A DNA stretch of 64,000 nucleotides from Paramyrothecium sp. XJ0827. Its lineage: Eukaryota > Ascomycota > Sordariomycetes > Hypocreales > Stachybotryaceae. A program made the position numbers and the translations under genes. Shown in pieces: positions 6,017 to 59,755 of the stretch (its first letter is position 1; the number at the start of each line of letters is the position of its first letter). The DNA lies in assembly GCA_020881915.1 (NCBI GenBank), contig JAJFPB010000004.1, positions 5,518,001-5,582,000 on the forward strand, in the 5' to 3' direction. The notes below the pieces were generated by a model that was not told where the DNA came from, ran no database searches, and saw only the letters and a list, made by a program, of their open reading frames with translations.

Positions 6017-7793
6017 CTAGTTACGAGACGTGAAGTTGAGATATGGACCCTCGTGACGAATGGAGAAGGCATCAAATGTCTGGAACTCTGGCTTTTTGCC
6101 CGACGCCGTATCCTTGTAGACACAGCCAATCTCTCCCAGTTCTCCGGGAGCTTGCTTGAAGTCAAAGTGCACCATGATCTTGGCCAAGATGAGACCTGCC
6201 TCCAAGTATGCCATTGATTTTCCTGCGCAGCTGCGGATTCCGGCAGAGAATGGGTTGAATGCTTGGCGCATTTCAGGCATATTTGCATCACCTATCTGAT
6301 CGTAATCGTCAGTCTCCGGGAGATCCCCCGTCAGCCAGCGATCGGGGTTATAGGTGAATGAATCAGGAAAGTATGTCTCATTGTGATGGATGGAGTACGT
6401 GTTGACCCCAACCAATGTGCCTGGCGGTATAATGTGCCCGTCGACAACCCAGGGGTCTTGACGCTTGTCGTCTATGGCCTCACGCCACAAGGTTCCTCCA
6501 ATAGGCGGCGTCATTCGCAATGCCTCGTCGATGCACGCTCGTAGATACCTACAGCGCTTGAAGTTTTCCCTATTGAGAATATATGCGTCGCTGCTGAAGG
6601 TATTTCGGACTTCTGCAGCTAATTTCTTGTAACACTCGGGGTACCTCGATAGGTAGAATAACGTAGCCGCAAGGGCGCTCGATATCGTATCCCCGGCTGT
6701 ATTGGATGAGTATAAGGCAGCTCAGTGTGCAATGACTCAAACAAACCTGCGGACAAGAAGAAAAGCGACTCTGAAAACAATTCTGACTGTTGCATATCCT
6801 GAGCTTCTGACTCTAAACTGCTGCTAACGAAGGAGTAAAAGTCATGCTTTGCATTTGCATCTTCTTTGAGACGAGCTTGTACCATAGTCCAGATAGTCTC
6901 TCGCCACTTTCTTCTCATTGGGCTTCTTTTGAGTAGCTGGTCGAGCTGGAGTTTGGACAGTGCAGGGAAGTTCATATACAGGTTGATGCGTAAATTGAAA
7001 AGACCAAGACTGGTAAAGAAGTAGTCGTACTCCTTACTTGTTTGGAGGTTAACAGCCGTCCCAAAACCGAGGAGCACAGAAATATCCATGGAGAGTCTTC
7101 TCAGCATGTCAGTGACATTGACAGGTCTAGTAGGCCCAGCCTTCCTGATGAGGCCTACGAAGATACCAATTTGCTCAGCCATTGTAGGTTGGAACGCTCG
7201 CATCGACCGTTCAGACAGGCTTGGGCTGATGATCTTGCGCTTCCGCAGATGCGCATCGCGGTCGATGGTGTTGAAGATGAAGGGCCGGACGTTGACAACC
7301 GAGAAGAGATATACATTGGATTTCGTCACGGACGGATTTCTGTAGATATCTTACTGGGGATCAGCACAACCGCATGGCACTAGGCACTTTCAAACCTCAC
7401 CTCTTAGAGCCGCCGTAGTGTTGAAAACCAATCGATTTGGGCCATAGCGCATGACATCTCCTGGTTGTGGCTTAGAAACAGGTCCATGAGGAGCGAGGAA
7501 TGGGGCAAGAGCGTATCACTGACCATACTTCTGGTGGTCCTTGAAGGTGGCCAAAGGGACCGACCGCTTAACAGCGTGCCAGCCGGCATAGCAGTCGGAT
7601 ACTTTTGCCAACCATGGACCGGGGTACTTCTTGAGCGGGTGTAGGGCGAGATTGTACAACCATGTGTAGATGCACTCGAAGGTCGTTAGACATTGAAGAT
7701 AGCCACGGAATTACCGAAGTCACTACTTACAAATGGTATCAAGATACAGCCGATGCCCTCTATGAGGGTCGGGAGATTGGTGGTCAGTCCCAT
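6017..7793 (-). CDS. Cytochrome P450 monooxygenase, intact by inspection
   Basis: Microsomal-type P450, a haem-thiolate monooxygenase, probably a tailoring oxidase for the neighbouring polyketide pathway (inference from position). Five exons (7731-7793, 7524-7674, 7401-7460, 6747-7349, 6017-6696) sum to 1557 nt, encoding 518 aa, a normal family length. The N-terminus has a hydrophobic anchor followed by a proline-rich KYPGPW hinge. The I-helix AGDT motif (residues 293-296) is rebuilt exactly across intron 4. The ExxR motif EALR is at 350-353. The haem loop FNPFSAGIRSCAG starts near 439, with the Cys ligand near 449. The start at 7793 is the Met that opens the anchor. Intron 3 needs an unusual AAG acceptor. 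No stop or frameshift was found, in contrast to the dead PKS beside it. The substrate is unknown. Confidence 0.88.
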
Positions 7794-9288: not shown

Positions 9289-10799
9289 CTACTTAGCTTG
9301 GTGCAAGGTGCACTCGATTTTGCTGCCTTCATGGCCACTGCGAATTCTTTCCGGAACGATATCGACCTCACATGAAATGACAATATGACCCAGTCCAGAG
9401 CCTACCTGAAGGGCGGTTGGTTGGGTTGAATAGCCTCCAAGGCCGTGCGTAGCTATTTCGCTAATTGGAGAACTTAGGGCTTCTGTATATAAGTCCGTCG
9501 TCCCATTTTGCTCTCTTGCATGGGGCCTCTGTGTGTGAGGAGAATTTCTGGCTTTAGAAGAGGCTGCTGATTCCCTCCTAGAGGAAAGGCCCAAAGCGGC
9601 GCTAAGGGTTGGACAGTATTTGATAAATGGTCGCAAGGAAGGAATTGATGCGCAAACGATGAGAGCGCACACCTCAACTTGGGACCAGAGCATGGGAACC
9701 ATGAGACTCTCTAGCTGAGGTAAGCTTATATAGCCGAGGATTAGATGATCAAGTACTTGCTTGTCAGATCTGCCCCAATCTCTCTGATGTATATTACCCG
9801 GATTATAGCAATGATACAGACACTAGATTCTAGAAATTAGCAGGACACAAAGCAAAGACAAGCATCAGCGCTCGAGGTGATGGGCATACAACAAGCCGAT
9901 CGACAGCATTAAAATTGCACCGACTCTCTTCTCCGTGCTTATATGAAGACTCCAGACAGCGGGGATAGGCTGAATGAAGAGGCAGACGTCGGTAACGAAC
10001 TTGACGACAAACTAGAGAGGCAACACTCTTAGCAGGTCTTATCATGCGATATCCCAACCATAGTGCTCACCCAGATGTAGTAGAAGAGTCGCAAATCGAG
10101 GCATCGTCCTTCCATTTGAGGATTCCACGCTTTGTTCACTGGGTGACACTGGAAGATGACGACCATAGTGGCTACGAGCCCTTCAATCCCCAACAGACCA
10201 AGAAGCACTTGGTTGAGGCGTCGAGAGAGGTGTAAGGGAAACAATCGCAGGTAGAGAACGGCGAAGGACATCTTGGCCGTAACGAAGCCCCACACATAGG
10301 TCAGTTGCGTGAGGAATTGGAACTATAAAGTCAGAGTCCGTTCGATTCGAGGGTTAATTGAACATCACTTGCCTTGCGGAACTTGCGGAAATTGTCAGCG
10401 GAGACATCGGTAATGGGTGTTCCGAAACCGTATGTGGTCACTGCTAACATCAGTCCAATGTTTCCAGAGCGCTTTCGCAGATATCCCTGGCACTAACTAA
10501 CTAGTACACAGCTGCAGAACGTAATCGTTAGGCACTAGCACAGTTAGTGGTGTTTTCTCTTTCACTGCAGAAGAGAAGGCTTCAGAAAGGATCACGCACA
10601 TAGCTAAGGAATACAAGAGCTGGCTTGTGAGTAAGCATTAGACATTTCGGGGAGCTAGAGGTAGCATACCATCGTCCCAAGCCACGCTGCGGAAGATGAA
10701 ACTCCGAACAAAGACCCTAATTGAGACGAACAACGTGATCAGCACCATTAGCGAGGTGCTAAGTCCGATTATCTTTCCCACGGAAGGAGACATCCTCAT
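9289..10799 (-). CDS. SAT4/PTH11-like seven-TM membrane protein (fungal rhodopsin-like domain)
   Basis: Integral membrane protein of the fungal rhodopsin-domain (SAT4) superfamily. Members are candidate receptors and often sit beside secondary-metabolite genes, but their functions are mostly unknown. The start at 10799 opens a TM helix ending in the family signature AWDD. Later exons give VTTYGFGTPITDVSADNFRKF, then TYVWGFVTAKMSFAVLYLRLF with a FQCHPV motif, then VCLFIQPIPAVWSL, a further TM (VCIIAIIRVIYIREIGADL) and the usual SQVE...ASIPSLRPF segment, followed by a polar tail ending at 9289. Joining them takes about six introns, one probably with a GC donor (near 10375). The second exon (about 10500-10660) is the least certain, so a defect there cannot be excluded. 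Confidence 0.75.
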
Positions 10800-13619: not shown

Positions 13620-13768
13620 CATTTGACCTTCTTAAGGGCATTAGAAGCTATTAGACTAGAGGACCTGGGGCTAGATATATTATATATTAGTATTATATAG
13701 CTTAAAAGTTAAATATAAGCCTTAAATATATTTAGTTTAATTTTAATTAAATACAGGCTCTACTAAGT
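13620..13768 (-). repeat. Degraded solo LTR-like fragment of the Copia-associated repeat
   Basis: The reverse complement shares a long motif with direct repeats at 51887-52030 and 59396-59540: GTACTTAGTA, then CTAAATATATTTAAGGCTTA, then TACTAATATA. It is strongly AT-biased. It abuts the NRPS fragment, which it may have disrupted. Confidence 0.6.
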
Positions 13769-13769
13769 A

Positions 13770-14398
13770 CGAGGCAGACGTCCACATTCTGTGCCGCCCC
13801 AATAAGATCACATCGGCAACGCTGGTCAGCACTGCATGGGCTGTCCTGCTATCGCGTATATCTGGGATTGATGATGTCGTATACGGCAATGTGGTCGCCG
13901 GACGAAATTCGGCCATTCCAGAGATAAAAGACATTGTGGGGTGTTGTCTGAACATGGTCCCTTGTGCGGGTCAATCTCTCGTCACCGAAATCAGCAGCCG
14001 AGCTGCTGTATGCTGTTCAGGAACAAGTTTTGGCCATCGGACAATCCGGCTCACTGGGATTCAAGGAAATGATTGAGAAATGTACAGATTGGCCAGCAGC
14101 TTCGAGCTTCGAGTCAACTATCCATCATCGCAACGTCGACGAGCACCCAGAAATCGAGACTCAGATTGGCGTTTCCCGAGTGCAATTCTTCGAGAACAAA
14201 GCTCGCCATGTGCCTGACAGTATCAGCATGTTATCGTTCCCATAAGACAATAAGATCAGTATCTTATTTGGGGCAAACACGCATATCATGCCGCGGCAAA
14301 TGGCGCATGTCCTAGTCGATAGCCTTGTCAAAATTATTCAGAACTTAGCAAAGTCCCCAAATGCGCCCTTAATATCATTAATAAAGGATAATGAGTAG
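13770..14398 (+). pseudogene. NRPS condensation-domain fragment, frameshifted
   Basis: The C-terminal half of an NRPS condensation domain is readable. It has TAWAVLLSRISGIDDVVYGN, then VVAGRNSAIPEIKDIVGCCL, then, after a one-base insertion near 13970 (extra T), VRVNLSSPKSAAELLYAVQE to about 14245. After another frame break it ends QMAHVLVDSLVKIIQNLAKS. The HHxxxDG half, adenylation and carrier domains are absent. This shows that a peptide-synthetase gene, perhaps a partner of the dead PKS, once existed here. Confidence 0.85.
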
Positions 14399-15544: not shown

Positions 15545-16423
15545 TTGGACGTGCTTACCAAGAGGACCAAAATGGCGAAATTGGACGCTTCCCACGATAA
15601 CGAAGACCACGAAGCGTTGCTCGAGAATTCGGATGGATCTAACAATGTTAACGAGAAGCGCATGAACTTCTTCCGTGAACCCTCCGGGAGAAGAGTGTAT
15701 ATGCTGGCATGGCTCCTCTCTGCTTCGTTGATCACCAACACAATTTTGCTGGCTCTGCTTCTCCGACCAAGCCCTGGCGAATCTCTTTCCAAATACGCCA
15801 AGCTCGCACGAAACCGGGAAGAGCCTTACGTGCGCTTGACGCCATACAGCTCGGGTCACAACGAGACTCTGCAGGACCAGCTATGGCGGGATATCAATGT
15901 TGACTACGGCGTCGTCGCGCTATCAGACGCGTGGGCTGCTCAACACGGACTTCGTACGGCGCAGCGTTTTCCCTGGGACAAGACCAAGGGCATTTACATC
16001 CTCCACGGCTTCCACAACCTGCACTGCATCAAGATCATCCACATCTCGATGACCGAGTTCCGCCGTGGCGAGGAGCAATCGCGGGCCTGGCACCATGTCA
16101 GCCACTGCATGGACGCCCTGCGGAGGCAGATCATGTGTGACGCTGACGACACGCCGCGAGCCACCGACAGGCGGCCAGAAGTCGTCAGCGGGCTTTTGCA
16201 GCATCGCATGTGTCGGAACTGGGATGAGCTCATCGAGTTTAGCAAGCGCCACACGGCCTGCTACAAGCGTCCGGACACACCATCCAAGGATGGACGGTCA
16301 TCTATTGAGTGGTACACGCACTGCCCTCCTGGGAGCAGTTATGTTGTCAAGAATGAGTATGTGCCGACCGATGAGCTCATGATCGGGCTCCCGGAAGAAT
16401 CACTTGAAGGTTTCGGGGGCTGA
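15545..16423 (+). CDS. UstYa-family oxidase-like protein (DUF3328), gene 1
   Basis: Single-exon 292-aa protein of the UstYa/DUF3328 family. Family members are membrane-anchored proteins required for oxidative cyclisation of fungal RiPP peptides such as ustiloxins and asperipin. Visible features are a polar cytosolic N-terminus, one TM helix (residues about 51-73), a lumenal domain with the two diagnostic motifs HNLHC (157-161) and HVSHC (184-188), the typical QIMCDADDT stretch after the second motif, and several further Cys. Length is normal. A second Met at 15572 is an equally good start. It ends 437 bp from the tail of the Kex2-repeat precursor gene, which points towards it, so it is the likely modifying enzyme for that peptide. 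The actual reaction is unknown. Confidence 0.92.
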   Translation: MDVLTKRTKMAKLDASHDNEDHEALLENSDGSNNVNEKRMNFFREPSGRRVYMLAWLLSASLITNTILLALLLRPSPGESLSKYAKLARNREEPYVRLTPYSSGHNETLQDQLWRDINVDYGVVALSDAWAAQHGLRTAQRFPWDKTKGIYILHGFHNLHCIKIIHISMTEFRRGEEQSRAWHHVSHCMDALRRQIMCDADDTPRATDRRPEVVSGLLQHRMCRNWDELIEFSKRHTACYKRPDTPSKDGRSSIEWYTHCPPGSSYVVKNEYVPTDELMIGLPEESLEGFGG

Positions 16424-16859
16424 ATGTGAAGATTCGCAATCTGTGCAGGCGTCATAGTACAGTCTCTAGTCTCTGACATGGCTTCTCATGTGGAAACCTA
16501 TAATCATGAAGTAGTCTAGACAACCTTGCTTAGCACTGCATGTTGATGTGATAAAGTTTCGCAAGGTAAGAGCCCTGGCCTGAGTTCGTCCAGAGTCGCC
16601 TTGGAAACTGGCGTTGCAAGTATCGCAATATGCTGCAGAAACATCTTGGACCGATGAAGCAGAGCCATAACGAAAGAAGCAAGTTGGATTTGCAATTTCA
16701 ACTATATCGAGCAAGAAGAGCGGCTTGAGGGCTATAATAAGTGCCGAAAGATGTTGTAATAGTCCTTTCCCATCATTGTGCATCCCAGATAAAATGCATG
16801 ACCGTACCGTCCTTCGCTTCCGAGTTCAGACTTCAGTCCCAGGCTAGCAGATCCAATTC
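16424..16859. other. Convergent 3' region between UstYa gene 1 and the precursor
   Basis: Tail-to-tail spacer holding both 3' ends. The small frames here are not supported as genes. Confidence 0.5.
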
Positions 16860-17209
16860 TCAAAATCCGTCGGCAATCTCGACCTCCTCGTCCCGCTTCT
16901 TGAAGCCATCTGCCACTTTGACCTCTTCATCGCGCTTAAAGCCGTCAGCGACCTTCACTTCTTCATCCCGCTTGAACCCGTCGGCGATCCCAACTTCAGC
17001 ATCATCGCGCTTCTTATAGCCATCCGAGGTGCTCACGCCCTGGCTGCCATCTCTAGCGCTGAGCAGGCCATATTCAGGATCTGGGGGAACGTATTAATCA
17101 TGGCGAAACACCAAGATGATAAGAACAATCACGTCTTACCGGCAACCGGCAATGCTGAAGAGATAGCGACCAAGCCAAGGATCACAGTGTGCACAGCAGA
17201 ACATCGCAT
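16860..17209 (-). CDS. Kex2-repeat RiPP precursor peptide (dikaritin/UstA-like)
   Basis: Two exons (17140-17209 and 16860-17080) around a 59-nt intron (GTAAGA donor, CCCCAG acceptor) encode 96 aa. Residues 1 to about 19 form a signal peptide (MRCSAVHTVILGLVAISSA). After a short leader come five tandem units of 10 to 15 residues: one ending STSDGYKKR, then GIADGFKR, DEEVKVADGFKR, DEEVKVADGFKKR and a terminal DEEVEIADGF at the stop codon. KR or KKR sites (46-48, 60-61, 72-73, 84-86) fit Kex2 cutting, and acidic D/E spacers precede each core. This is the architecture of ustiloxin-type precursors. Flanking UstYa-type genes support a RiPP role. The short exons make the gene easy to miss. The core sequence is not one I recognise. 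The product and any bioactivity are unknown. Confidence 0.88.
16863..17051 (-). repeat. Tandem coding repeats of the RiPP precursor
   Basis: Five in-frame units: 17007-17051, 16968-17006, 16932-16967, 16893-16931 and 16863-16892. Units 3 and 4 encode the same 11 residues (DEEVKVADGFK) but differ at synonymous positions in 7 of 11 codons. This argues for selection on the peptide rather than a recent DNA duplication. Confidence 0.88.
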
Positions 17210-18137
17210 CTTGATTGACGTGCTTCGCAAATTGAAGTAGATGACAGGAGATAATATGTGTCAACTGGAATGTTCTGTCAACAGAATCGAGGATAAAATC
17301 TGGGAGAGCCGTCCACGATATCTATCAGTTGCGGTTGCTCGGTTATACCACGCCCCTCCTCTTGTCCACAGAAAGAATAGACGCAGATCTCTTGCCATAA
17401 ATGCATCGTGCATCTCCTTAATGTTCGAAGCCCCCTGTCATTAAATGTCTTCATGGGGGTTTTGCACATTTAATGGTATGTGCCAACCCATGTAACTATG
17501 AGCGGGACAATGCGTCTAATACGTCGTTGTACTTGCAACAATCACAGGACAGGCTCAGCGGGCGCCACGTCACTTCAACTGGTCGACAAGGGTGCTGCCA
17601 AGCTGAGCGAGAGAGGGGAGGCTCCAGGCATGCAAAGTACGGAAACATTTGTCCCTGCCATGTAACGTCGAGAAATGCAACAAGGCGCGCAAGACGAGCA
17701 TAATACGGACAGGACTACACCGAAGTGGCGAATTATTGCAAAATTCTTGACCTCGACGACGAGGACGGTGGGGAAATGTTACATCTCTTGCCCTTAAATC
17801 TGGTAACCAAGCCGGCTCTTTTAGCTTTGATGGAATTTTTTTTCTTGGGAGACGGGGCAAAAGCTGGTCATCCGGCTAAACTGGTGGGGTGGAAGGACCA
17901 TCCATAGGTGATGAGAATAGATGCATTGGGTAGGTCATGGGTAGATTATAACGTGGTATTCGTATCGCGCCTGACAAGGGGCGTCGGATACATCATGAGA
18001 AGAGCGCGGGTCGACCATGGCCTCTGGCAGAGCAGCCATAGCGGCTCTCATACTATTATACTAGCGGTGGAGCCGGGCTTGGCTCTGCCATTTTTACCCT
18101 ATGTAATGTGTCAATCTGTTTCTCAATCAATCTCGCT
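17210..18137. promoter_or_regulatory. Shared divergent upstream region of precursor and UstYa gene 2
   Basis: The precursor (minus) and the second UstYa-type gene (plus) are transcribed away from this 0.93-kb region, which allows co-regulation. No operator can be named by eye. Small frames at 17473-17907 lack any family signal. Confidence 0.5.
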
Positions 18138-18950
18138 ATGCTCTTTGGCAGCTTATTTCAGAGACAGCCTCGATACGACCCGCTTGCGGGAGGGGAATGG
18201 GATCTCCGTTTGGGAGGTTCTCAGAGTCCTGATCCCAAGCACTCTGCGAAACCTGCACGAATGGCGCTTGTGATCTTGAGCTATCTTTCAGTCACCGCCA
18301 TAGGCTTTGGATGTGGGACTTTCTACGAGAACCACAGTGGTATCTTGCATAGAAAGAGCCTCACGGCACCCCGTATACCTCTGCCCCTCGTCAAACTGGA
18401 CTTCAAGAATGAGACGCCTTTTCTACTGGAACCCCCCGGGAGAGAGAACTCGGGGAGCTTATCTGAGCCCATTTGGGATGAACTAGTGCCAAGTAAGCGC
18501 AGCCTTGAGAATGAAGTTTGTATCCGACGCTGACTAAGGACGGAAGACGGACTTGGCTACTTCAAGGATGGCCACATCGCTCATGAAACATCTATTCGAA
18601 CGGTTTTCCACCAACTCCACTGCCTGTATCTCATCCGTCGTGCCTACTACCAAGGGTCAGGCGAGCTTCAAGAGTTCGATTTTGGCAAGGATAGAGACAA
18701 ACATGTCGCGCATTGCCTCGATTACTTGAGACAGAGCCTGACATGCACCATAGACACGACGGTAGAGCCGGCCTTGGGACAGGAAGGTGACTTTCTCGGC
18801 TTCGGTTTCAAAAGGCAGTGCCAAGACTTTGAATCGCTGGAGAGGTTTGTGGAGAAGAACAGGGTCTTCAATGCCAGGGGGTTTCTAGCAGGTGGTCTGG
18901 ACCATGGCCATGCACACCTCAACGACCACGACAGCAAGCGGATCCTTTGA
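18138..18950 (+). CDS. UstYa-family oxidase-like protein (DUF3328), gene 2
   Basis: Two exons (18138-18492 and 18547-18950) with a 54-nt intron (GTAAGC donor, CTGAC branch, GGAAG acceptor) encode 252 aa. An upstream in-frame Met at 18108 would add 10 residues. An N-terminal TM lies at about residues 43-60. The intron join rebuilds the family segment WDELVPNGLGYFK, followed by the two motifs HQLHC (140-144) and HVAHC (171-175) and LRQSLTCTIDTT. It is a paralogue of the gene at 15545 but clearly diverged. Several known dikaritin clusters carry two such proteins (known of the family), which fits a joint role in modifying the peptide encoded at 16860-17209. Confidence 0.9.
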
Positions 18951-19761: not shown

Positions 19762-21093
19762 ATGGCTTACTCGGCCAAGTTGAGACTGGTCGATGACCGG
19801 ACAGGACTAATCGTTATGGCCACGTTCTTCATCCTCCTTACCACCCTGCTGGTCGTGCTTCGATTCTATTCGAGGCGTCTGCAGAGGGCAATGTTGGGCT
19901 ACGATGACTGGCTGGCCCTGGCAAGCTTGGTGAGAAGAATCTTGCTACTCGACTCGGAGGCGTGCCAGCTCAATTGACATCTACCATACCCTAGATTTTT
20001 GTCACGGCTTTGAATGGCTGCTTCATTGCGGGCTGCGTGGAAGGCGCCATTACGGGACACTCTGAAGTCGTCAACGGCTTACCCGCGACAAGCCCTCTCG
20101 AGAACCTGGTGCAGAAGTACAAGTACGGCTTCCAGTCGACGGAGAAGCTCGGCTTCGGCCTTATCAAGCTGTCTATTCTGTTCCTGTGGCTACGCATTTT
20201 TGCCCGCGCTACGCGCTGGTTCGTCGTCCTTTGCTGGGCAATGATTGTCGCGACAGCCGGCTGGGGCATTGCCTTCTTCTTCGCAACAATTTTCCAGTGC
20301 GGCACCAGATGGGACTGGAATTGGTCACCCATCTTCTTCTTCCTTACAGAGTGCACCGACACGCTCATGATGCTGACTGTGTTCACGGCGACGGATTTGC
20401 TCAGCGATTTCATCATCATGCTCATGCCTGTGCCCCTGATCTGGTCACTCAATATGCCTCTAAGAAAAAAGTTTGGCGTCACTGGCGTCTTCCTGCTGGG
20501 TCTATTGTGAGATACTCGCTTCTGTGAGAGCCTGAGCAACTGTTTCATGTTGACACGTAAACAGTACGATTGGAGCCGGCATCGCACGCATGTACATCTA
20601 TCTCGTCACGTCGTACGACAAGGAAACAAACCCCGACTTTATTGGCGACTTTACGCTTTTCATCCTCTGGTCGGAGATTGAGATCAACGTTGCACTGATG
20701 GTCTGCTGCATGCCCGCGCTTGGGCCCGTGTTAGACCGAACGCGCAGTAGCCTGCGACGAAGTCCAGTCGGCCAATGGATCCAGCTTGGCCCATCAACTC
20801 GTGGCGGCAGCAGCAGCAAGACGACCAAGACCATGGAGCTCTCAACCAATCCCAACATGGAGAATGGCGAGCAAGCCTGGCCTATGCACGACGACGACGC
20901 GCCGTGGCACGTCAATGAGTCAACCAAGATCACTGCGAGCCAACCGTGCCCGGGCAGGGAAGACTTTCCGTTCGGAAATAACATCTTGGCCGAGACGGAG
21001 ATATCCCGAACATTGGAGGAAACACCCTTGGAGTGGGGGCAACGCATGCATGTGCGAACAATTCGAATGGGAGGTGTCCCGGATGAGAAGTAG
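19762..21093 (+). CDS. SAT4/PTH11-like seven-TM membrane protein, complete
   Basis: Three exons (19762-19929, 19995-20506, 20565-21093) sum to 1209 nt, encoding 402 aa. Hallmarks of the fungal rhodopsin-like (SAT4) domain are in order: TM1 followed by MLGYDDW, the GFQSTEKLGFGLIKLSILFLWLR segment (a kinase-like look only, since this is the third TM region), FQCGTRWD, ATDLLSDFIIMLMPVPLIWS, GAGIARMYIYL, and a WSEIEINVALMVCCMPALGP end. A polar cytosolic tail follows. The start at 19762 is preferred over 19741 because it opens the TM1 leader. Members may be receptors. Whether this gene belongs with the RiPP locus 0.8 kb upstream is open. Confidence 0.87.
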
Positions 21094-21889
21094 ATGTTGT
21101 AAATGCTGCTACATCAGAGCGGAAATAACGCCACAAAAACACCATTGTACTTAGCGTTGTGCCGAAGCATGCCCGCGAGGGCAAAATTGTTGCATTTGCA
21201 TGCATCGAAACAATACAGCTGATTGAACCGTATGATCAGGGATAAGAAGCACTGTGACTTTATCATAAGTCAGTTTTAACAATCCGGCAGCGGGCCGTGC
21301 CATAGTGCCTGATAGAGGTGGCGCAGGAGGAGAGAAAGACGAACCTGGTCAGCATATCCAGACCGAGGTTGTACAGTAACATCCACTAGGCTTAGACTGT
21401 AGGGTTGAGGATCAATGTCATGACCCCTTATTCCGCCACACCACCTGCAGCTGAGGTTGCAACTGCAGGCAACACCTGAATTTGGCATGTCAGGGACGGG
21501 CGGGACATCCTTCAAAAGCACGATGCATGATCGCGGGCGTGTTTTTTGCGCTGTGTTGGGCTGCACCTCCTGAATCTACGTAGTCGACTCCATGTAAATA
21601 GCTAGTCTTTCACGCTCTGGTTTAATCACGGGACATATGCACCACTGATTGCAACCTTTCGTGCCCCCATCCAACAGACCGGCCAACGCGCATAAAATTT
21701 TACATGGGGTCAATATGTCGTCACGCTGTACTTGGCGATTCTTCGATAAACGCCGCCTCCCCCTGCCCCCGACAACGGGTTCATTCCGGTCCCCCTCTCT
21801 TGCCCAAGGCCTAATCCTCTTTCTTTTGTTGCCGCTCTCTTTCTATCGCCCTTGGTTGTTCCGGGGTCAGAGCTCATTCTACCGCCATC
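21094..21889. other. Non-coding stretch upstream of the esterase
   Basis: Contains the second copy of the 24-bp repeat (21210-21233) and a pyrimidine-rich leader before 21890. No gene is recognised. Confidence 0.5.
21210..21233 (+). repeat. 24-bp exact repeat, copy 2
   Basis: Identical to 14453-14476, in the same orientation. Confidence 0.7.
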
Positions 21890-24652
21890 ATGACTCGGAA
21901 CGTGTCGACCTGTCTCTTGGCCCTCAGCGCCTTGTTCGTGGGCGTTGTCGCGGTCGCCCTCGGATCGCTGCGCACATACCTGGCCGAGAGACTTTTGGAA
22001 CGCGATCTAATCCCGCCTGCGTTCATGATCCCCCAGCCAATTGCAATAAATGTTGGAAATAACATTAAATACCTCGGCACATATGAGTCCGGCGTCGAAC
22101 ACTTCAGGAACATTTTCTACGCAGAGGATACGTCGAGTAGGAATCGCTTCAATCCACCGGTCCCGACCACACCGAAGCCGGGATCCGTAATCGATGCCAC
22201 GAGGGAGGGAGCATGGTGCCCGCAAGGCACCGGCGACATCTTTCCATTCACCAGCCCAGTAACCAACATCAGCGAGAACTGCCTGAGCCTACGAATTGCT
22301 CGTCCTGTCGGTACTAGGGCTAATGCGAAGTTACCGGTCATGGTGTGGATACATGGAGGTGAGTCGCTGCTATGCTTGCCAACTGACGCCCAGTCGCCTT
22401 GACGCTTTTACCAGGTGGTCATGCTTTAGGTTCAGGATCTGATCTCTTGTACACGCCCGATGGATTGATCAAGAAGGCCGTCGCTGATAAGCAACCGGTG
22501 ATCTGGGTGGCAATCAACTACCGTCTTGGATGTGAGTTTCGCCCCGAGTGAACATCTTGGCTTGAAACTCATCCATTAGTCTTTGGGTTCGCCACAAGCG
22601 ATGCGATTATCGAAGCGAAGCATGCCAACGCAGGTCTCCGCGATCAACGTGCGGCACTTCAGTGTAAGTCGTGATATGAATCATATCATTTTGTACAATA
22701 AGACTAACAACGTCGCCTTAGGGGTCCGCAACAACATCAAGCACTTTGGAGGTAATCCGCAGAAGGGTAAGCTGTCTTTTCCGCGCCGCAAAATGCCCAC
22801 TTATCAATCCAAATTACCGCCAGTAACTGCGATCGGTCAGAGTGTCGGTGCAAGCGACATTACGCTTCAGTTGACTGCTTTCAATGGAGAACGCGAGACA
22901 CTATTCCAGCAAGCCATGTACGGACCCTGCTCTGGCATATCTCGCACGAAAGGCTGACCTCATATAGCTTAATGTCCGGCGGTCCTGGGCTCAATTTCAA
23001 CACCGACTCAAAACTTGTTGCCGAAAATACTGCGGCCATCGCTAGGGAAGTAGGATGTGCTAGGGGGGACGGCCAGTCCTTTGAAACACTGGAGTGCTTG
23101 CGCCTCATACCGTACGAGACACTCACGAACCTCTCCGTTACCGCATCCCGCAAGGCGCGTCCACCTTTCGGCGAAGGGTTCTTCTTTCCAACTCTCGACA
23201 GTGACTTCCTTAGGGACCGCCCGTCGGAACTCGTACGTGCGGGCAAGATAGCCAAGGGTATCCGCATTCTTGCGTCATGGGTTACCAACGAAGGCGCTTG
23301 GTACGCTTCCCCCGCGACTCAGTCAGACAAGGACGTGCTGGGGACGTTTGGACTCTGGCTTTCCGGGCTTTCCGATGCGACGAACAAGAAGCTCCTCCAG
23401 CTATATCCTCGAAACGACTTCGAGCATCTCGTACGACCGGAATACGATGGGCAGATCTCGCCGCAGTATTATCGTGCAGCACATATTAACCGAGACCTTT
23501 GGTTCACATGCCCGGTCGTCGACTTCGCTTGGCAGTATGCCCGAAAGGGTGGCGTGGATCTATCCGACGTTCGCCTTGCAGAGCATAACTCAACACGCTT
23601 CACACCAGTCTTCGAATACATGGGCGTTCCCATGTGGCGCGTGTCTCATCTTAGTGATATCCCTTATGTATTGAATCTGCAAAACCTGCCTGGCGGCGCA
23701 GATAACTCAGCCCAAGCCCTTGCACTCGGCGCAATGATGTCAAGAAGTATTGTCCGATTTGTTACTTCTGGTGACCCTGTGTGACGACCGGGCCTGGACC
23801 TAAGTACAGGGTAGGTGGTTTTGCGGTTTATTATTTAATGTAGGGAATAGGATTCCCTTTCGAAGTAATGGATCACTTATTACTAGTCTATAAGACTTCT
23901 TCTCTAGAAGCTAGTTAAAGGATATCTCGGGGACTATATATTATTAATAGCTAGTAGGTTCTAATCTAGATATAATATATAGAACCTCCTATCTATATAT
24001 GTGGTTCCTTTTCCTGGAGTATATAAGAGGGTACTCCTTAGATCACAATATATAATGCTCCTAGGAGCATTGCAGAAGGTAATCCCTTCTAGTAGTACTT
24101 CTACACTCCTAGCCTTATTTATAGGAATCTTCTTCTATATAGGTCCCTATCCTTATTAGATATTATTCTATTTCTATCCTTTTATCCCTAGTCTCTTGCT
24201 CCTGGCCCTTCTTTTATACTAGTATCTGATGTAGGCTAGTACATTGGGGCTGGCCTATGGGTTATACTAGTAGTGCAGGAGCTAGCCTTTCTTGAGGCCA
24301 ATAGCCCGAGGCTGGTACGGCATTTATGTGTTATGTTATGTAACTTTCTACGGCTTAGTTATGACCTTGGGTCAGGTCGTGATACCCTGACGATAAAGGA
24401 GTGACCGGAAAAAACCGGTGGCTGCCTGCTTTTGGGAGGGCTAGCGCTAAGGAGCTTCGTCAGGCCACTTATCCGTCATCATTCTCAGTATGGCTTACGG
24501 GCGGTCCTCATGGGAATGGTCTAGTGACCGTGAGAGAACGTTCAAGCAAGCAGGATAGCACGCCGGCTCAGGACGCAATTCAGTGGGAAAAGTTAATTAA
24601 GCGTTGCGAATTTATTAATAGTGACCAGGTCAGGAGAGAGATAGGAATATAA
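21890..24652 (+). pseudogene. Type-B carboxylesterase/lipase, disrupted by a solo LTR
   Basis: Alpha/beta-hydrolase of the type-B carboxylesterase family. Exons are 21890-22358, 22415-22531, 22580-22663, 22722-22766, 22824-22917 and 22968-23779, resuming at 24390-24652. It starts with a hydrophobic signal or anchor. VMVWIHGGG and the nucleophile elbow GQSVG (canonical GESAG) are visible. A candidate acidic residue lies in NEG, and the catalytic His is in SHLSDIPYV. The last exon is split at codon GDP by an LTR (23780-24384). The remaining C-terminus (GGPHGNG and the typical RCEFINS end) is intact beyond it. Without the LTR and one TSD copy the exons sum to 1884 nt, an exact 628 codons. The interrupted gene stops inside the LTR (TGA at 23782-23784) and loses about 88 residues but keeps the triad, so residual activity is possible. 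Confidence 0.9.
23780..24384 (+). mobile_element. Solo LTR (family A) inserted in the esterase gene
   Basis: A 605-bp unit begins TGTGACGACC and ends GGTCGTGATA, nearly inverted ends. The final TGATA is a C-to-T version of TGACA seen at the end of another copy (59753). It is flanked by the 5-bp target duplication CCCTG (23775-23779 and 24385-24389). There is no internal domain, so it is a solo LTR. Its body shares blocks with 39710-40277 and 59549-59753. Confidence 0.92.
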
Positions 24653-29209: not shown

Positions 29210-31066
29210 ACGTACATGATAAGCGAGTGCACCAACCAAGCGAGTGCACCAAAAATTCACACCATTAAAATAGAACATTACTTAAAATCACTACAAAACA
29301 TCTAATCAATTAAAATTAATCACTATCGTCTTCTTCAGATACTAACACAACTATCTGACATGTTCTTGAATTATGTCCGGTATTTCCACAGGTTCTACAG
29401 CGCCTTTCTCTCGCCAGTGCTGACCTCCCTCGACCACCACTTCTCAACAATCCAGCCATTATCTGCGCATCAACGTCTTTCTGATCAATCTCATCCCTTC
29501 CCTCACCTATAGTCATCTTCCCTCCATTCTGTAGCCGGGTTCTTTTTGCCCTACGCCGCTTGCTAAGAGTCTCATTTGCCTGTCGAAGGATCTGGTTCTC
29601 AGACTTTAATAATGCTATTTGATGCATTATCGCCTTCGTTCCCTTAGAAAATGACTTAAGCGCATCAACAATAGATGCTGGGGAGCTTCCTGGTGCCTTC
29701 TGATTCGTCTTTCAAGGTATTCAGATTGAGAGGTAGCCTCAAGGACCGTCTTTGGCGTCTTGGGCACCCAAGGGTCGGGGAGGCCGGCCTCCTCCTCAAT
29801 CGGTGTTGGAGTTCGTACCTGCACATCAAGCTTCGATATGACACTTTCTGGGTCTAAAGGAACAAGCCCGGCCCCTCTAAAACCCCCTTTGATATTAATT
29901 TCTATTATGGCGGCTTGGTGGGCGGCGTAAAATGCCAGAAAGAACTCAGTCTTAGAAACGTGGGTTATAGAGCACCTGATCAGATGCTCTATTTCTCGAC
30001 CGTATGCCTTTTTGAGTGGCCCAAAGCACCCGACATCAAGAGGCTGAAGTAGGTGAGACGAATGAGGCGGCATACACAGCGTAATGATATGGTTATCTTC
30101 ACAATATTTCTCAAAGTCAACCGAGTGGTGACTTCCATGCCCATCGAGGATCAGAAGACGATAGCGACCGGTTGATCGGGCCTTGGTATGCCGGTCAAAG
30201 TGTTTTAGCCACTCAAGGCCGGTCTCATTGTCGGTCCAACCATTTTGAGTTGTCGCAATAGCCCAGTCGCCCGGAAGGTTGCTTTCCTGGTACCAGCTTG
30301 CGAGGTGATATTGGCCCGCGACCACGATGAACGGCGCGATCGCCCAGCCTTCGGCATTAATCGCCTGAATGACTGTAACCCATTCCCGGTTTCCAGGCTG
30401 GACTGATTTCGGGTTTCCACGCCTATCTGCACCTGTGACGACCATTCCGCTTGCAATTATGCCCATCATAAAGCCGGTCTCATCAAAGTTGTAGATATCG
30501 GCTAGGTCGATGCCATATTTCGCGATTGTGTTCTCCACGAGCCGGAACCAATTGCGAATAATGGTTGGATCTTCGCATTTAGCCCTCTGATAGTCATATT
30601 TACGAAAAAACGCGTCTTGAGCTCTGGTTGTCGCCTGACGAAGTTGGAAGCCCAGCGCTTGCCGACAGGTGACGCGTCGCGGTCAGCGAGCAGTCGGTTG
30701 GCCATTTCTTCAACACCACGCAGTCGCGGGGAAATCCTCGCGAATCCAGGTCGAGAATGAACTGGACAATAATCTGCTCCTCTAGATCGGATAGTCTCCG
30801 TGAGTTGGGGATGGTATCGCGCCGAGACTGGATGCCCCTCTGTCGGCGACGAAGGGCATAATAATCCACCTGGTATAATCTTGCGGCGGGTCGTAGACCC
30901 AGTTTCGGGTCATTTTGAAGGGCCCGAAGAGCGAGAAGCATATTAGCTTCATTATTTGATTGTGACATATTTGGTGGTTGAGAAATAGTTGATTAGATGT
31001 AAAGAGGAGAGATTGAGTAATTTTTGGTGCACTCGCTTGGTTGGTGCACTCGCTTATCATGTACGT
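29210..31066 (-). mobile_element. Fot1/pogo-type DNA transposon, complete ends
   Basis: An 1857-bp element with perfect 48-bp terminal inverted repeats (29210-29257 and 31019-31066). Each contains two copies of AAGCGAGTGCACCAA. It is flanked by TA (29208-29209 and 31067-31068), the Tc1/mariner/pogo target duplication. Base composition is ordinary, with no RIP, although it sits in RIP-mutated DNA. It therefore arrived after RIP of the surroundings, or escaped RIP as a single copy. Confidence 0.95.
29316..30968 (-). pseudogene. Fot1/pogo transposase with three one-base frameshifts
   Basis: The N-terminus (from 30968) holds a Psq-type HTH and then a Tc5/CENP-B-like HTH. The DDE_1 catalytic core shows NFDETGFMMG, LLILDGHGSHHS and LLQPLDVGCFGPLKK, with all three Asp present. 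The C-terminus has a basic helix and a CCHC knuckle (CRTCGNTGHNSRTC) and ends at 29316. Three breaks separate the frames. Each needs one added base in a homopolymer: C-run near 30731, T-run near 30605, G-run near 29687. Otherwise the protein looks complete. Either the gene is freshly dead or the assembly undercalls homopolymers. Confidence 0.92.
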
Positions 31067-34574: not shown

Positions 34575-36689
34575 TTAATCAGAACGTACTTGAATTGTCC
34601 TTTTATCCCCAACAGACTCTTGTAATGATTCCTCTCGCAGATGCCCAGACATATCGGCACCGCGCTTATACATGGTGTAGCCATTCAACTTCGGCGCACT
34701 CCTCTTTCTAAACCCGTACACTATTCCTAGCACAGCAGAGATTCCGGACCAGATGCAGAAAAGTGCCAAAACAAAATATCCCATCACGTGCCCGGGCACT
34801 AGCGATGCAATGTTTAAGATGCTGCCTTTTCGTGACGCGGTTAAACCTGTGTCAATCCATCCACCTTCAAACCCAGATGAGAAACCGTACATGAACTCGA
34901 TGGCATTGAGGCTGTAGGCAAGTATAGTGGACCGCAACAAAGCGTCGGAATTGACGTAGCCTTGCCATCTATACAAGCTACCATGAGGCACTTCGCGTGG
35001 CGAGTGGCTGGCATAGTAAAAGTCGGAAAACCTTGTCCATTCAAGAAACTTCCAGGCCTGACTGTCGAAGATACCTCGGTCGCCATAGACGAAGACAGGA
35101 TCCACATGTTCGAAGCCGGTGAAGGATGACGTTACGCCATCCAGAGTTGCCTCTCCAAGGTCCGAAGATGCAACACATCGGACACCAATCGGCGCCGCCA
35201 CATCCAGGACGGGTTCTGCGTATTCGAACTTGGGACTGTTGATTTTATAGTCTGTTAACCGCGTTGAGTTGAAAAATTTGCGGAGATCAGTGACCGAGGC
35301 GTCCAACTTGGTCTTCACTTGGCCGACTTCCTCAAGGGTAAAATTGCCGCCTTGTCTTATCTTAAAAAACGTGTCATTGCTGATAAGCGTGCCATTTGCC
35401 GACTTTGAAAAGGGACCTCCCATGCCTTCGACAACAGGGCCTAGTGTAGAATTGAAGGAAGGTATTGTGCCGTCGTCGTAGTAGCCGCGAAACTGGACTT
35501 GCCATAACGCATATTCAAAAATCGTTGACTGGGATATATTAACCGGAACACCGTATTTGCCATCAGAAAAGTAGCTGCGGGCAGACGTGGACGGGATACT
35601 CGTCCCCATCTCGGAATACGACCATAGATTGATGTGATTGGGATCGACCGAGCTGTTGGAGATGTAAATCGCAGATCCTGAAGGGGTACGGAGGCTGACA
35701 CTGGTTCGTCCGTTGGCCTCGAATGAGTCATCGCCTGATTGAGCCATCGAGAACATGGAAATGGGCTTCTCGCTGAGAATCATAAATTCGGAAGCCTTGC
35801 GAACGACGGAGCAGTTGTACTGCACTCGGAATCCCCAGGCTCGGCCTGACGTAGGTATTTCGGCTTGAGGTGCCAAGAACATGTCGAAAAAGGAACTGGT
35901 CAGTGGCAGGTTATTTGGCACCTTCTCAAAAGAAGAATGCTGCGCCCTATCGATATCTGGAGCTGTGTATACGATTCCGAAGCCTGGAATGGTTGGATAC
36001 ATCCCAATTCGCCAAGCACTCCGCACGCCAGTATCGGACCAAACCAATGTCGACCAAGTGCTCGTGTTTCGTCCTATCACTAGAGGATTGGCGGATGTGC
36101 TAATGTAGCCATCGGTGATCTCGAACACAAGGCCAGATAAAGGAAACGCAATAAAGGGAAGGAGGGATAAGAAGGCAAGTAAACTCCACAGTTTAGAAAA
36201 GTCGCGACGCCATATAGCCCTCATCCACCCTGAAGGGGAGCTCCACGTAGCGTCAGAATGCATCATAAGCGTATGAAGATCAGATGCCTTCCAGAAGCGG
36301 GATTGGAGCATAGCAAACTCCACGCCTGCCAATCCGTATTCAGACCACGACAAGCCGAAAACACCGATGATGAACCAGGAGTAGTAGATCAAGGACCCGG
36401 AAAAGTGGCGGTACTTTGCGGCATCATCGCTTTCGATACCCAGGACAAGCCGAACCCATATTATGGCGTACCATACAGTGATGATGGATGGAATTAAGAT
36501 GACCGACAGAGTTCGAGCCCAATAGCGCTTGAGTTTTGGGGGCTTGGTTGTTTCTGCTTGGCCTTGATGCTGAACCTCTTTGTTTTCGATTTCAAGATCA
36601 TGTTTATCGCCACCAACATCGTGAAGTTCATGGAGAAGGTTGTCCGTGACGGCGTTAGTATCGGCCTGTGATCTAACGAGGGACGGCAT
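34575..36689 (-). CDS. Uncharacterised multi-pass membrane protein, 704 aa
   Basis: Single uninterrupted exon. I do not recognise a named family beyond the fungal-specific hypothetical membrane proteins of this size. Visible: a charged N-terminus (about 55 aa), TM segments near residues 58-82, 97-117 and 170-195, a large probably extracytoplasmic middle of about 420 residues with several N-glycosylation sites (for example NTST, NCSV, NSSV, NSTL, NGTL, NFTL) and a few Cys, and a final TM (MGYFVLALFCIWSGISAVLG) before a basic tail. There are no stops, RIP signs or frameshifts. The start at 36689 is the first Met and fits. No function is proposed. Confidence 0.85.
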   Translation of the reverse strand: MPSLVRSQADTNAVTDNLLHELHDVGGDKHDLEIENKEVQHQGQAETTKPPKLKRYWARTLSVILIPSIITVWYAIIWVRLVLGIESDDAAKYRHFSGSLIYYSWFIIGVFGLSWSEYGLAGVEFAMLQSRFWKASDLHTLMMHSDATWSSPSGWMRAIWRRDFSKLWSLLAFLSLLPFIAFPLSGLVFEITDGYISTSANPLVIGRNTSTWSTLVWSDTGVRSAWRIGMYPTIPGFGIVYTAPDIDRAQHSSFEKVPNNLPLTSSFFDMFLAPQAEIPTSGRAWGFRVQYNCSVVRKASEFMILSEKPISMFSMAQSGDDSFEANGRTSVSLRTPSGSAIYISNSSVDPNHINLWSYSEMGTSIPSTSARSYFSDGKYGVPVNISQSTIFEYALWQVQFRGYYDDGTIPSFNSTLGPVVEGMGGPFSKSANGTLISNDTFFKIRQGGNFTLEEVGQVKTKLDASVTDLRKFFNSTRLTDYKINSPKFEYAEPVLDVAAPIGVRCVASSDLGEATLDGVTSSFTGFEHVDPVFVYGDRGIFDSQAWKFLEWTRFSDFYYASHSPREVPHGSLYRWQGYVNSDALLRSTILAYSLNAIEFMYGFSSGFEGGWIDTGLTASRKGSILNIASLVPGHVMGYFVLALFCIWSGISAVLGIVYGFRKRSAPKLNGYTMYKRGADMSGHLREESLQESVGDKRTIQVRSD

Positions 36690-38943
36690 GGCTGTCGAAA
36701 TTAAATACAGAGAAAAGAAAAAGTGTAGGTTGGCGGGCGACGGCTATCCAGATGCTTGTTGTCCACGTTAAATGAGCGCAGGGGGGGCCCTGGGTCTGAG
36801 CTGGGCCGGAATATAGACGGAGCCGTCAAAAGTCCCAACCACGCGACAAGGGAGGTCTTGTAAAATTAGAAAATGAGTCAGAATAACACCAAATATCGGC
36901 TCTTCATTTCACTGGCCGGAGGCGGTCTGCAAAGAGCAAGTGCACTATAGCGCTACTCACTTTAATAACTGAAACGAGCATCGATGGACTCATCATACTG
37001 TAGCTGAGAAAAGAACGCCGGAAGTTGGAGGGCGTCGTAGACCTATCCTTGGGAAAATTCACCCCAGGGGCCACTAAACTTCATCCTGGATGCTGCGAAA
37101 CCTTAGCGTCTTGGCGACCGGAGACTTTTGGAAGCTTTCTTTTGGATGAGCGTAGGATGACCAATAAAAGAAGATGGAGGCGAGGAAGTATGCAGTCAGC
37201 AAGAATGGAGCCTTCCTTCTCGATCCACCTACTTAATACCTTTGAGGATAATTGAGTACGTAAGACTATAAATTGTTCCTGCAGATCGCTAAACAACCTA
37301 TCCCGATGAAGTGAGGATTTCGGGTGAGTTATTATTAAGCTGATTGCTGGTCCGGGAGCTCAGTATCGCGGACGCTGTCGTTGACCAGAGTGGCCTTGGT
37401 GAGATTGGCGCTTAGGAGCGGTGAAGGTTCCATTTTGAGGCCAGGCTCCTCCAGCTACTGGGTAACCCAAGACAGGTAACCGAGACTTTAGGCTGGCAAT
37501 AGGGGACATGTACGGCAGCCAAGTTAAGTACGACGGTGGGAATCTGCTCCCGACTCAGGCTGGATTTAGGTAGCTTAAAGTCGGCCAGACAAGCCTAGGG
37601 TCGATTGCCTTATCACCTCATCGCCTCACAGGTGAGACTGAACCTGTCTTGAAGGCTATTGACATGTAAATTCGCCTTGTCATAAGACTCTGTTCCGAAG
37701 CTGGCTTAAGCAGTAGACGGTTGAGAGCCTGACAATACTTGATACTTACCACCAGGTGCATCTCACTCCTCAGTTCAACGGAGAGTAGCAGAGTAAGTAA
37801 ATTCAGGTGGGACTTTGAAATGCTGCCTATGTTGGGGAGGTCTCGTTGTCTTGTTATGGTGAGAAAAACGGAGCTCACTGTCAGATATGCCGGCCCATGA
37901 CTGGAAGACAAGGCGCCGGCAGTGGACCTCACGCCATCAAATTAGCCCGGCCGATTGGTTGAAGATTATGGTAGAACATATGAGGTTCGAGGTCATCAAT
38001 GGTGATTGTCAAGGATAGAACCCTTGGCTGTACGACGCTGATGAAGCTCTCGTCGGTTTCACAGTGCCCATCAAAGGGCTGTAGCTGCCATTTGAGAGTC
38101 TGACTGGGCGCACGCCAAGATGGCTAGTGTCACTGACCCTCAACGACTCGAAATCACATAGTAAACACTGAGACAGCAAATTGGAGTCAGTCTAGGTTTA
38201 GGCCTTTTTGAAGCAAGCCGAGCAGACACACACCTTGCGCGAGCAGCCCCATCAGTTCCACTGACAACTACTCAAGGGCACTCAGCCATCCAGATCTGAC
38301 GTGGCCGTCTTCCTCCAGGGACTGGTTCTGTGTTTGGCAGCTTTTCGGTGATATGTGCGACGCTGTGCTTATTCCATCCGATCTCATCTTCTAGTAGCCC
38401 TATACGGCGCGGTGAATCGGCCGTCGTAGTTCTTGCGCCTCATCTGTTCTTCTGAAGATCGTCCTGGTACAACAGAGGTTTGGAGGTGCTTCAATGGCAG
38501 CCAGCATCAGATTGCGGTTGGCATGGCTCAAGTCGACTTGGCCGTGGATGAGTAGCTTGGTCTCCTCAGCGTAAATGGTTCAGCACTGCGGTCAAAACGG
38601 CAATCATTTGACTCCAGATCGGCTTTGAGGTTAGCCTGACTGAGTCAAAATGGTGGTTCATTACTTCGTACTGACCGTGCTGGAAGAGTAGCTTGAAGAG
38701 GGATAGTAAGCCCACCATCACGCCCGCTAAGAAAACAATCTACGCCAACATGGATAAGCGCCACGCTTCACCTAAAGTGTTGAGCAGGTCTGGGAACTAG
38801 CCAATCAGAAATGTTCTTATGGCCAAGATCCAGTTAGATAGTTGACGTCATTCTGCCGAAATACAAAACCTAGTCTCTTCCTTGCCCAGAGCATAGTCTC
38901 GATCGAGCATAACAACTCTCCTTCTCTTTTAATCCCAGTCATC
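36690..38943. other. Long stretch without a supported gene
   Basis: 2.2 kb of normal composition. Short frames only. A minus-strand reading at 38300-38800 has coding-like patches (for example VMVGLLSLFKLLFQHG) broken by stops, perhaps a gene relic that I cannot place. Confidence 0.45.
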
Positions 38944-39709: not shown

Positions 39710-40277
39710 TGTGATGATCGGGGGTAACCTTACACCGTTAGGTATAGGGTAACTAAGGATTGCTGGGGATTTGTTTATCCTTAGACAGAATAATAGAAAA
39801 GTATCTAAAGTATATAAGGGGTTATTACTAGTTTATAAGAGAATAGTATAATAAAGGTTATCTTAGGGACTATATATTATTAATAGCTAGTAGGTTCTAA
39901 TCTAGGTATAATATATAGAACCTCCTATCTATATATATAGTTTCCTTTTCTTAGAGTACTAGATTATAATTAGATTATAATCCCTTAATCTATTCCTATG
40001 TATTTTTGCTATTTATAGAAATCTTCTTCTATATAGGTCCCTATCTATATTAGGTATTTTCCTTACTAGTCCCTTATTACTGGTCCTTTACTTCTAGCCC
40101 TTCTTTTATACTAGTATTTAATTTGGGCTAATATATTAGGGTTGGCTTTAGGTATTATACTAGTGCTACGGGACTAGTCTTTCTTTAAGGCTAGTAGCTC
40201 TAGGTTAGTATTAGGGTTATATATTATATTATGTGGTTTTCTACGGTTTAGTTATAGCCTTAGGTCAGGTCGTAATA
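39710..40277 (+). repeat. LTR with family-B start and family-A end
   Basis: Begins TGTGATGATCGGGGGTAACC and follows family B through the ATATTATTAATAGCTAGTAG block. It then continues as family A (GGTTCTAATCTAGGTATAAT, CTTCTTCTATATAGG) to the family-A end GGTCAGGTCGTAATA. The flanking 5-mers (GACAT and AAGTA) do not match. The piece after it (40278-40404) equals the sequence inside the right LTR of the Gypsy element. Confidence 0.75.
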
Positions 40278-40404
40278 AAGTAGAGGCCGTAATACTATAA
40301 AGTAGGCTACTTTCTTTTCCTTAGAGTTTAGCTTAATTAACTTACTTATTATTTTAATATTACTTTAGGTATAATAGTATTATTTAGAATAAGAGCTATT
40401 AATA

Positions 40405-51404: not shown

Positions 51405-51886
51405 ACTAGGCTATATTTAAGATATAGCTAATTAATCTAAGAATAAGAAGCCTAGTAAGGCTAATAGAAATCTATTTAAGAGTATAATAAAGAGATTAAA
51501 AAAGATATAAAATAAACTAAAGCTCTTATTATTATAGGAAATAGTTAAATAAATTTAACTTATTCTAATTAATAATATTTAGTTCTAAATTCTTATTATA
51601 TAATAATATATATTATCTAATATAAGTTTATATAAGCTACTATAGTAATTAAGTTAATTATATAACCTATTATATAACCTTAGTAATAGTAGTAATAATA
51701 GGTCTTTTATCCTTAGTACCTAGGAGGAGGCCTAAGCTTTATATTTTATTTTACTTTCTCTTTACTACTTAGGATCTATTAGATTAATTATATAAGTATA
51801 GGAATCTTCTTCTATATAGGTCTTTATTTATACTAGATCTTTTTATTTCTTAGCCTCTTATTAGATTATAGGGATTATAGGATACT

Positions 51887-59540: not shown

Positions 59541-59548
59541 AATACCTC

Positions 59549-59753: not shown

Positions 59754-59755
59754 AC

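Follow-up and report, generated by a model that had tools for sequence, protein, structure and literature searches.

What would a pair of UstYa-type oxidases do to a repeated peptide core that is nearly free of tyrosine, and why should such a peptide be conserved? Both questions are posed by a locus in the fungus Paramyrothecium sp. XJ0827, within the 64,000 nucleotides that we analysed (the window; C10:5518001-5582000 in a genome of 51.8 Mb on 15 contigs), where a two-exon gene for a 96-amino-acid (aa) precursor (16860-17209, minus strand) sits between two UstYa-domain genes, A and B, both on the plus strand. Our comparisons make it very probable that this locus is a three-gene cassette of the dikaritin type. 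Dikaritins are ribosomally synthesised and post-translationally modified peptides (RiPPs) that arise from Kex2-processed repeat proteins (KEPs) and are cyclised by UstYa homologues (PMC10512285). The RiPP reading is well supported because the same genome holds a second such cassette on contig C12, because relatives of the precursor lie by UstYa genes in other fungi, because the core is nearly invariant, and because the codons for A-D-G-F in the window differ only silently. The RiPP assignment is thus strong; as to the chemistry of the product, analogy suggests that it perhaps carries a bond between Phe and Val.

Exon 1 of the precursor gene (17140..17209, minus strand) contributes the start codon and, in the spliced translation, a signal-peptide-like N-terminus, MRCSAVHTVILGLVAISSALPVA; residues 9-20 of the precursor form a hydrophobic stretch, as judged by hydropathy profile only (peak 2.53). 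A predicted 59-bp, phase-1 GT-AG intron (17081..17139, minus strand; GTAAGA...CCCCAG) separates it from exon 2 (16860..17080, minus strand), an open frame without its own ATG that encodes five Kex2-type units: VSTSDGY, VGIADGF, VKVADGF twice and VEIADGF. In the full translation, MRCSAVHTVILGLVAISSALPVADPEYGLLSARDGSQGVSTSDGYKKRDDAEVGIADGFKRDEEVKVADGFKRDEEVKVADGFKKRDEEVEIADGF, they run STSDGY-KKR, IADGF-KR, VADGF-KR, VADGF-KKR and IADGF, the last Phe being followed directly by the stop codon, and an acidic spacer precedes each core. The predicted splice product is therefore as an initial annotation of this DNA had described it, with four units ending in (V/I)ADGF, one in TSDGY, and KR or KKR after four of the five. 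ADGF occurs four times in the six frames of the whole window, each time as one of these units. Judged by hand, the precursor contains the at least three repeats of at least 8 aa, bounded by KR, KK, RK or RR, by which the methods of one survey recognise KEPs (PMC7329392). It matched no family in Pfam (E 0.01) or NCBIfam (E 1), and ten relatives of the precursor gave only sub-threshold Pfam matches.

Gene A (15572..16423, plus strand) has no intron and encodes 283 aa with a hydrophobic helix near the N-terminus and a UstYa domain (PF11807, E 5e-22). Gene B (252 aa) would be read from two plus-strand exons around a predicted 54-bp intron (18493-18546): exon 1 (18138..18492) encodes a hydrophobic stretch and has no Pfam UstYa match in its frame, and exon 2 (18547..18950) matches PF11807 at E 2.1e-22. 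The paired HxxHC motifs that the initial annotation had read in both proteins are present in each (HNLHC 148 and HVSHC 175 in A; HQLHC 140 and HVAHC 171, both from exon 2, in B), as expected of the UstYa proteins of a dikaritin locus. The His and Cys of the gene A pair are invariant or nearly so in a 48-row alignment (the query and 47 of the 120 listed relatives), and UstY enzymes are reported to use a dicopper site (PMC12186524). A and B represent two separate UstYa lineages; the sequence of A found nothing among solved structures at E 1. With PF11807 genes on both flanks of a KEP precursor, the neighbourhood is that of a dikaritin locus, and the cassette is apparently an intact three-gene unit of that kind.

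A search of the genome for the UstYa family gave 28 exon matches, among them the second cassette on C12 (L009), in which the three genes recur with order and orientation unchanged. There gene A ends at 4457 (plus strand), the precursor gene (exons 5091-5025 and 4969-4842, minus strand) encodes MKVVAIQSIVLGLFALVAALPAVKSRAASIQVNEGHKRDEMEIDVSEAFKRDEMEIEVSEAFKQ, and gene B occupies 6129-6474 and 6564-6967 (plus strand). The predicted precursor intron is 55 bp long and of phase 1 (GTGAGA...GATTAG); three joins kept the frame, and the one chosen alone kept the putative signal peptide whole. Both precursors thus have a predicted phase-1 intron just after that stretch. The C12 precursor, with the core VSEAF and two good units, probably falls short of the survey's three-repeat rule; it was also missed when the genome was searched with the window precursor at E 0.001, which returned only the query's own gene. 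When the C12 region (29.5 kb, with 408 open frames of 40 codons or longer) was compared with the window at E 1e-3, the matches fell on the three cassette genes, with E 4.7e-6 for the precursor; some of them lay antisense to these genes. One further match of 28 residues, at 41168-41251 inside AT-rich DNA, we take as chance. The C12 copies are also the nearest kin of both oxidases in the genome, at 53% identity and E 8.7e-92 for gene A (next, E 5.5e-13) and at 55% identity and E 2.2e-43 for the second exon of gene B (next locus, E 3.8e-12).

A recent duplication of the cassette was considered and rejected. In a tree of gene A relatives, the C12 gene A lies in a clade of eight rows with other fungi and the window gene A groups elsewhere; because of that separate clade, the two cassettes are, as far as the tree can tell, old relatives and not a fresh duplication. 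The tree holds 107 of 122 rows, after a length filter of 240-330 aa, and its bootstrap support is unsettled; P0106, below the filter, was added by hand, and P0004, which has a co-located precursor, was dropped as too long. The RiPP reading that the initial annotation gave for this candidate locus is supported, with one refinement: the locus is not a one-off, and its core belongs to a conserved VDVADGF family.

That family extends well beyond this genome. At E 0.001, 144 relatives of gene A were found, 120 of them listed; the named ones among those listed are largely from Xylariales, with others from Aspergillus, Penicillium, Diaporthe and lichens. A two-sequence profile of the precursor found Diaporthe sp. 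PMI_573 (E 1.7e-6) and Penicillium verhagenii (E 0.06). With these two added, a four-sequence profile, which scored only the 7992 candidates sharing most words, found 20 relatives at E of 10 or less, 15 of them below 1e-3. Nine of the 20 carry species names, from Sordariomycetes, Penicillium and lichens, and two of them, Fulgogasparrea decipioides and Squamulea squamosa, are named from lichen metagenomes. Classes were looked up for Fulgogasparrea (Lecanoromycetes, Teloschistaceae), Whalleya (Sordariomycetes) and P. verhagenii (Eurotiomycetes).

The initial annotation had said that its reading would be refuted if related genomes had no homologous precursor beside DUF3328 genes, and the outcome spoke for the reading: nine of the 20 apparently are co-located with a listed gene A relative, as judged by equal size of the longest contig and the same source, and not by the DNA itself. 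Consecutive locus tags strengthen three of these pairs (precursor first), those of P. verhagenii (P0122/P0062, N7466_007230/007229), Rostrohypoxylon terebratum (P0123/P0001, 468784/468783) and Parahypoxylon ruwenzoriense (P0125/P0005, 007621/007620). The others belong to Diaporthe (P0121/P0047), Whalleya microplaca (P0126/P0004), Biscogniauxia marginata (P0129/P0040), two sources without a species name (P0124/P0035 and P0128/P0106) and Hypoxylon crocopeplum (P0140/P0010), the weakest, with E 8.4 and one full unit. A further pairing, P0134/P0019, shares a contig size of 1035 but not the source and was not counted as linked. In the gene A tree, the eight rows that have a co-located precursor turn up in many different branches.

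Across the 22 precursors now in hand (the 20 relatives, the window and C12), the core is nearly invariant, with the consensus V-D-V-A-D-G-F. The pattern [VIM]x[VITL][AGSV][DE][GAVR][FY] fits 75 units: position 1 is V in 58, I in 16 and M in 1; position 2 is D in 57 and otherwise A, E, V, N, G, K, Q or S; position 3 is V in 58, I in 15, and L and T once each; position 4 is A in 60, G in 8, S in 5 and V in 2; position 5 is D in 71 and E in 4; position 6 is G in 67, A in 6, and V and R once each; and position 7 is F in 74 and Y in 1, the sole Tyr being that of VSTSDGY, the first unit of the window precursor. Against the 75 observed, shuffled precursors held 0.11 core matches on average. Because the pattern itself came from this family, the comparison is in part circular and serves as description and not as an independent test; 60 of the 75 units come from 18 precursors outside the profile-building set. 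A dibasic pair within five residues of the core, or the chain end, follows 70 of the 75, and the chain ends exactly at the core Phe in 17 of the 22 precursors. A looser scan (83 scan windows) put His last in seven rows: one is a C12 unit (NEGH), and the other six are register artefacts. The window copy is a slightly divergent member of the conserved VDVADGF family.

The codons of the window precursor tell the same story. Compared pairwise, its four ADGF units differ at 34 codons, 25 silently and 9 with replacement, where about 24% of random point changes would be expected to be silent. The replacing changes are confined to the variable second place and to the V/I place, and the first V, A, D, G and F vary silently only, which argues that the core is under selection as a peptide.

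How, then, might the cassette work? We infer cleavage, oxidation and cross-linking by analogy with known pathways. The precursor would enter the endoplasmic reticulum by its putative signal peptide, and in the Golgi Kex2 would cut after KR or KKR, as in the ustiloxin pathway (PMC7329392, PMC9233826). A Kex1-type carboxypeptidase could then trim the basic residues and leave peptides ending in ...V-x-[VI]-A-D-G-F-OH; a mature C-terminal Phe is supported by the stop codon that directly follows Phe in 17 of the 22 precursors. In P0122, P0127, P0128 and P0138 the core is followed by F-K-x-R-R or F-K-K-S-R-R, and an extra trimming step would be needed there, because removal of basic residues alone would leave extra residues. 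The acidic spacer probably is a recognition sequence or is trimmed off. The two UstYa proteins would oxidise the core within the secretory pathway, most likely with copper held by the HxxHC pairs. Four of the window's five units have a Tyr-free core and so cannot form the Tyr-phenol ether known from ustiloxin, phomopsin and asperipin. The likeliest products would instead have the side chain of the C-terminal Phe bonded to an upstream Val or Ile, and/or a hydroxylation or desaturation. We favour the Phe-Val/Ile bond because the core is nearly Tyr-free, because Phe is C-terminal in 74 of 75 units and because victorin offers a precedent; the VSTSDGY unit would be the natural comparison for the Tyr-free units.

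A close rival concerns whether a ring is made at all. The same RiPP cassette might use its UstYa pair to hydroxylate or desaturate Val or Asp and so yield a linear modified peptide, a serious possibility that we nevertheless place short of probable. UstYa homologues are reported to desaturate residues in phomopsin (PMC10512285) and, in the cyclochlorotine cluster, to carry out hydroxylation and chlorination (PMC12048977), and the core offers one conserved acidic and two conserved aliphatic residues and, bar one exception, no phenol; however, few positions of the core vary as little as the aromatic one (74 Phe and one Tyr in 75 units), which suggests that the ring itself is used. One could also suppose that the peptide is chemically unmodified, a Kex2-processed linear signal of the pheromone or hormone kind whose UstYa neighbours are coincidental or serve another pathway. 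Strong conservation across classes does fit a receptor-recognised signal better than a fast-evolving toxin, 74 units of 75 without Tyr fit an unmodified peptide, and one paper describes KEPs as secreted peptides without post-translational modification (PMC7099791). We consider this explanation unlikely, given that the precursor lies between two UstYa genes at both loci of this genome, that nine of its 20 relatives apparently are co-located with relatives of gene A, and that, in the survey cited above, mating-factor and pheromone KEPs are almost never accompanied by DUF3328, with three exceptions (PMC7329392). Nor does the precursor resemble that group in itself, having no Pfam family at E 0.01 and UstYa-domain neighbours on both sides. 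That the frame is spurious or decayed could be argued from an exon 2 without ATG and a gene model that depends on a predicted intron, but chance is scarcely credible given that other fungal classes have homologues, that the C12 copy shows its predicted intron at the matching place and in the matching phase, and that codon drift at A-D-G-F is exclusively silent.

Several observations nonetheless weigh against a dikaritin-type RiPP cassette. UstYa proteins are also reported to act in nonribosomal peptide synthetase and polyketide pathways (PMC12048977), and a fragment of a nonribosomal peptide synthetase condensation domain, which looks like a remnant, lies 1.5 kb upstream of gene A (13747-14073, plus strand; PF00668, E 2.8e-11); a cytochrome P450 gene with at least two frames lies about 8 kb from the cassette (6020-7350, minus strand). 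Among the window stretches given to Pfam, a selection of the frames, there was no peptidase, methyltransferase or transporter. AlphaFold gave a model of only moderate confidence for gene A (pLDDT 75.3, pTM 0.63), and a fold search with it against the PDB found nothing at E 0.001. Co-location, as said above, was judged indirectly, and 11 of the 20 precursors had no link to the 120 listed of the 144 gene A relatives, several of them being on short metagenomic contigs. Even so, we hold to the cassette of dikaritin type. More tentatively, and with more doubt than confidence, we suggest that the VxVADGF peptides form an old, conserved, oxidised family across Sordariomycetes, Eurotiomycetes and Lecanoromycetes, a Phe-closed subclass of dikaritins whose constancy might reflect a conserved target or signalling role and not a lineage-specific toxin.

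Other UstYa genes of the genome also have repeat proteins nearby. On C8, at about 560-563 kb (L007, L012), a UstYa gene lies near a repeat precursor in which RR or KR comes after the STNNQAGWG units; on C5, at about 585-593 kb (L010), several UstYa exon matches surround a repeat precursor with units like DADAAEKYKLYVDPS-KR; and on C9, at about 4.992-4.997 Mb (L006, L013), two UstYa matches lie by a 325-codon open frame with many AVAYGRHTDDVP repeats and EKR sites.

Beyond gene B lies an apparently intact gene for a membrane protein with a fungal-rhodopsin domain (19762-21093, plus strand). The idea that it is a fourth cassette member or peptide receptor, duplicated along with the rest, was rejected. 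Both loci have a PF20684 gene after gene B, but this family counts 155 exon matches genome-wide; in the C12 region the window rhodopsin protein matched best at 24% over 45 aa (E 0.05), and the C12 rhodopsin copy is absent from the 75 listed genome matches of that protein. A stretch of another fungal-rhodopsin-domain gene, of a family that is very large in this genome, lies at 10029-10319 (minus strand). Two pairs of rhodopsin-domain matches have equal scores (C2:822837-823568 with C2:1327714-1328445, and C2:388694-389161 with C4:137684-138151), which suggests recent duplications or assembly duplicates. Further along the window are a carboxylesterase-family gene (21815-23784, plus strand; at least two frames) that comes after the rhodopsin gene on its downstream side, a DDE-superfamily endonuclease (transposase-like) open frame in a lower-GC stretch (29630-30682, minus strand), and a 722-codon open frame without a Pfam match at E 0.001 (34578-36743, minus strand). 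From 40001 to 60000 the window is a 20-kb island of 13-22% GC, against 32-54% elsewhere (2-kb steps), and all its open frames are shorter than 110 codons; it is either a repeat block mutated by repeat-induced point mutation or a regional centromere. An Rfam scan of the window found nothing.

Among known systems, ustiloxin and phomopsin share with our cassette a signal peptide (putative in ours), tandem units between Kex2 sites and nearby UstYa-family genes (two for ustiloxins, five for phomopsins; PMC7329392), and with the relatives and the second cassette added, the initial annotation's placement in the ustiloxin/asperipin/phomopsin class gains support. Both are described as cyclised through a Tyr ring (PMC7329392), whereas the Tyr of a classical Tyr-ether dikaritin core is missing here from all but one of the 75 units in 22 precursors; the Pfam selection mentioned above gave no tyrosinase either. 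Asperipin-2a likewise comes from a KEP precursor and a UstYa-family oxidase, with one UstYa gene and a Tyr-based bicyclic core (PMC7329392, PMC9233826) against two genes and an almost Tyr-free core in our case. The DUF3328-linked KEPs of Umemura 2020 (PMC7329392) resemble the cassette in repeats and gene neighbours, as judged by hand. Tyr is given there for 65.6% of repeats, so that about a third are without it, and of the seven abundant types three carry motifs of another kind; the absence of Tyr alone is thus not rare among them.

The core itself seems to have gone unnamed. The main texts of two KEP surveys (one of them PMC7329392) do not contain ADGF, although their supplementary tables may hold the family unnamed, and a full-text literature search for VADGF, IADGF and longer forms gave no paper on fungal RiPPs, as judged by titles and the starts of abstracts. 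A survey of Hypoxylaceae metabolites reports ustiloxin-like RiPP clusters in some species, with a true diversity not yet estimable (PMC8403587), and a 2025 survey reports no repeat precursor in the two RiPP clans that it covered, both in Parmeliaceae (PMC12048977); precursor candidates can now be named from lichen metagenomes, in Fulgogasparrea (Teloschistaceae) and Squamulea. Fungal UstYa-type RiPPs with a known product were few as of 2022, namely five dikaritins (PMC10512285). The VDVADGF family is widespread and apparently uncharacterised; its general type is known.

In its chemistry, the nearest precedent for a Phe-ending core is victorin, likewise a multi-core RiPP and likely Kex2-processed, which is reported to be closed between the side chain of its C-terminal Phe and an internal Leu (PMC9233826). 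The likeness is one of description and not of sequence comparison: victorin is chlorinated and heavily modified (PMC9233826), and the aliphatic partners in our consensus are Val and Ile only, in place of Leu. KEP repeats are otherwise described as highly diverse, with most types confined to a single genus (PMC7329392). Set beside these systems, what is new, on present comparisons, is the conserved Phe-ending core, the small make-up with two oxidases and the spread across classes; a core kept nearly letter for letter in three fungal classes, together with a single precursor and two oxidases, makes a small and testable system.

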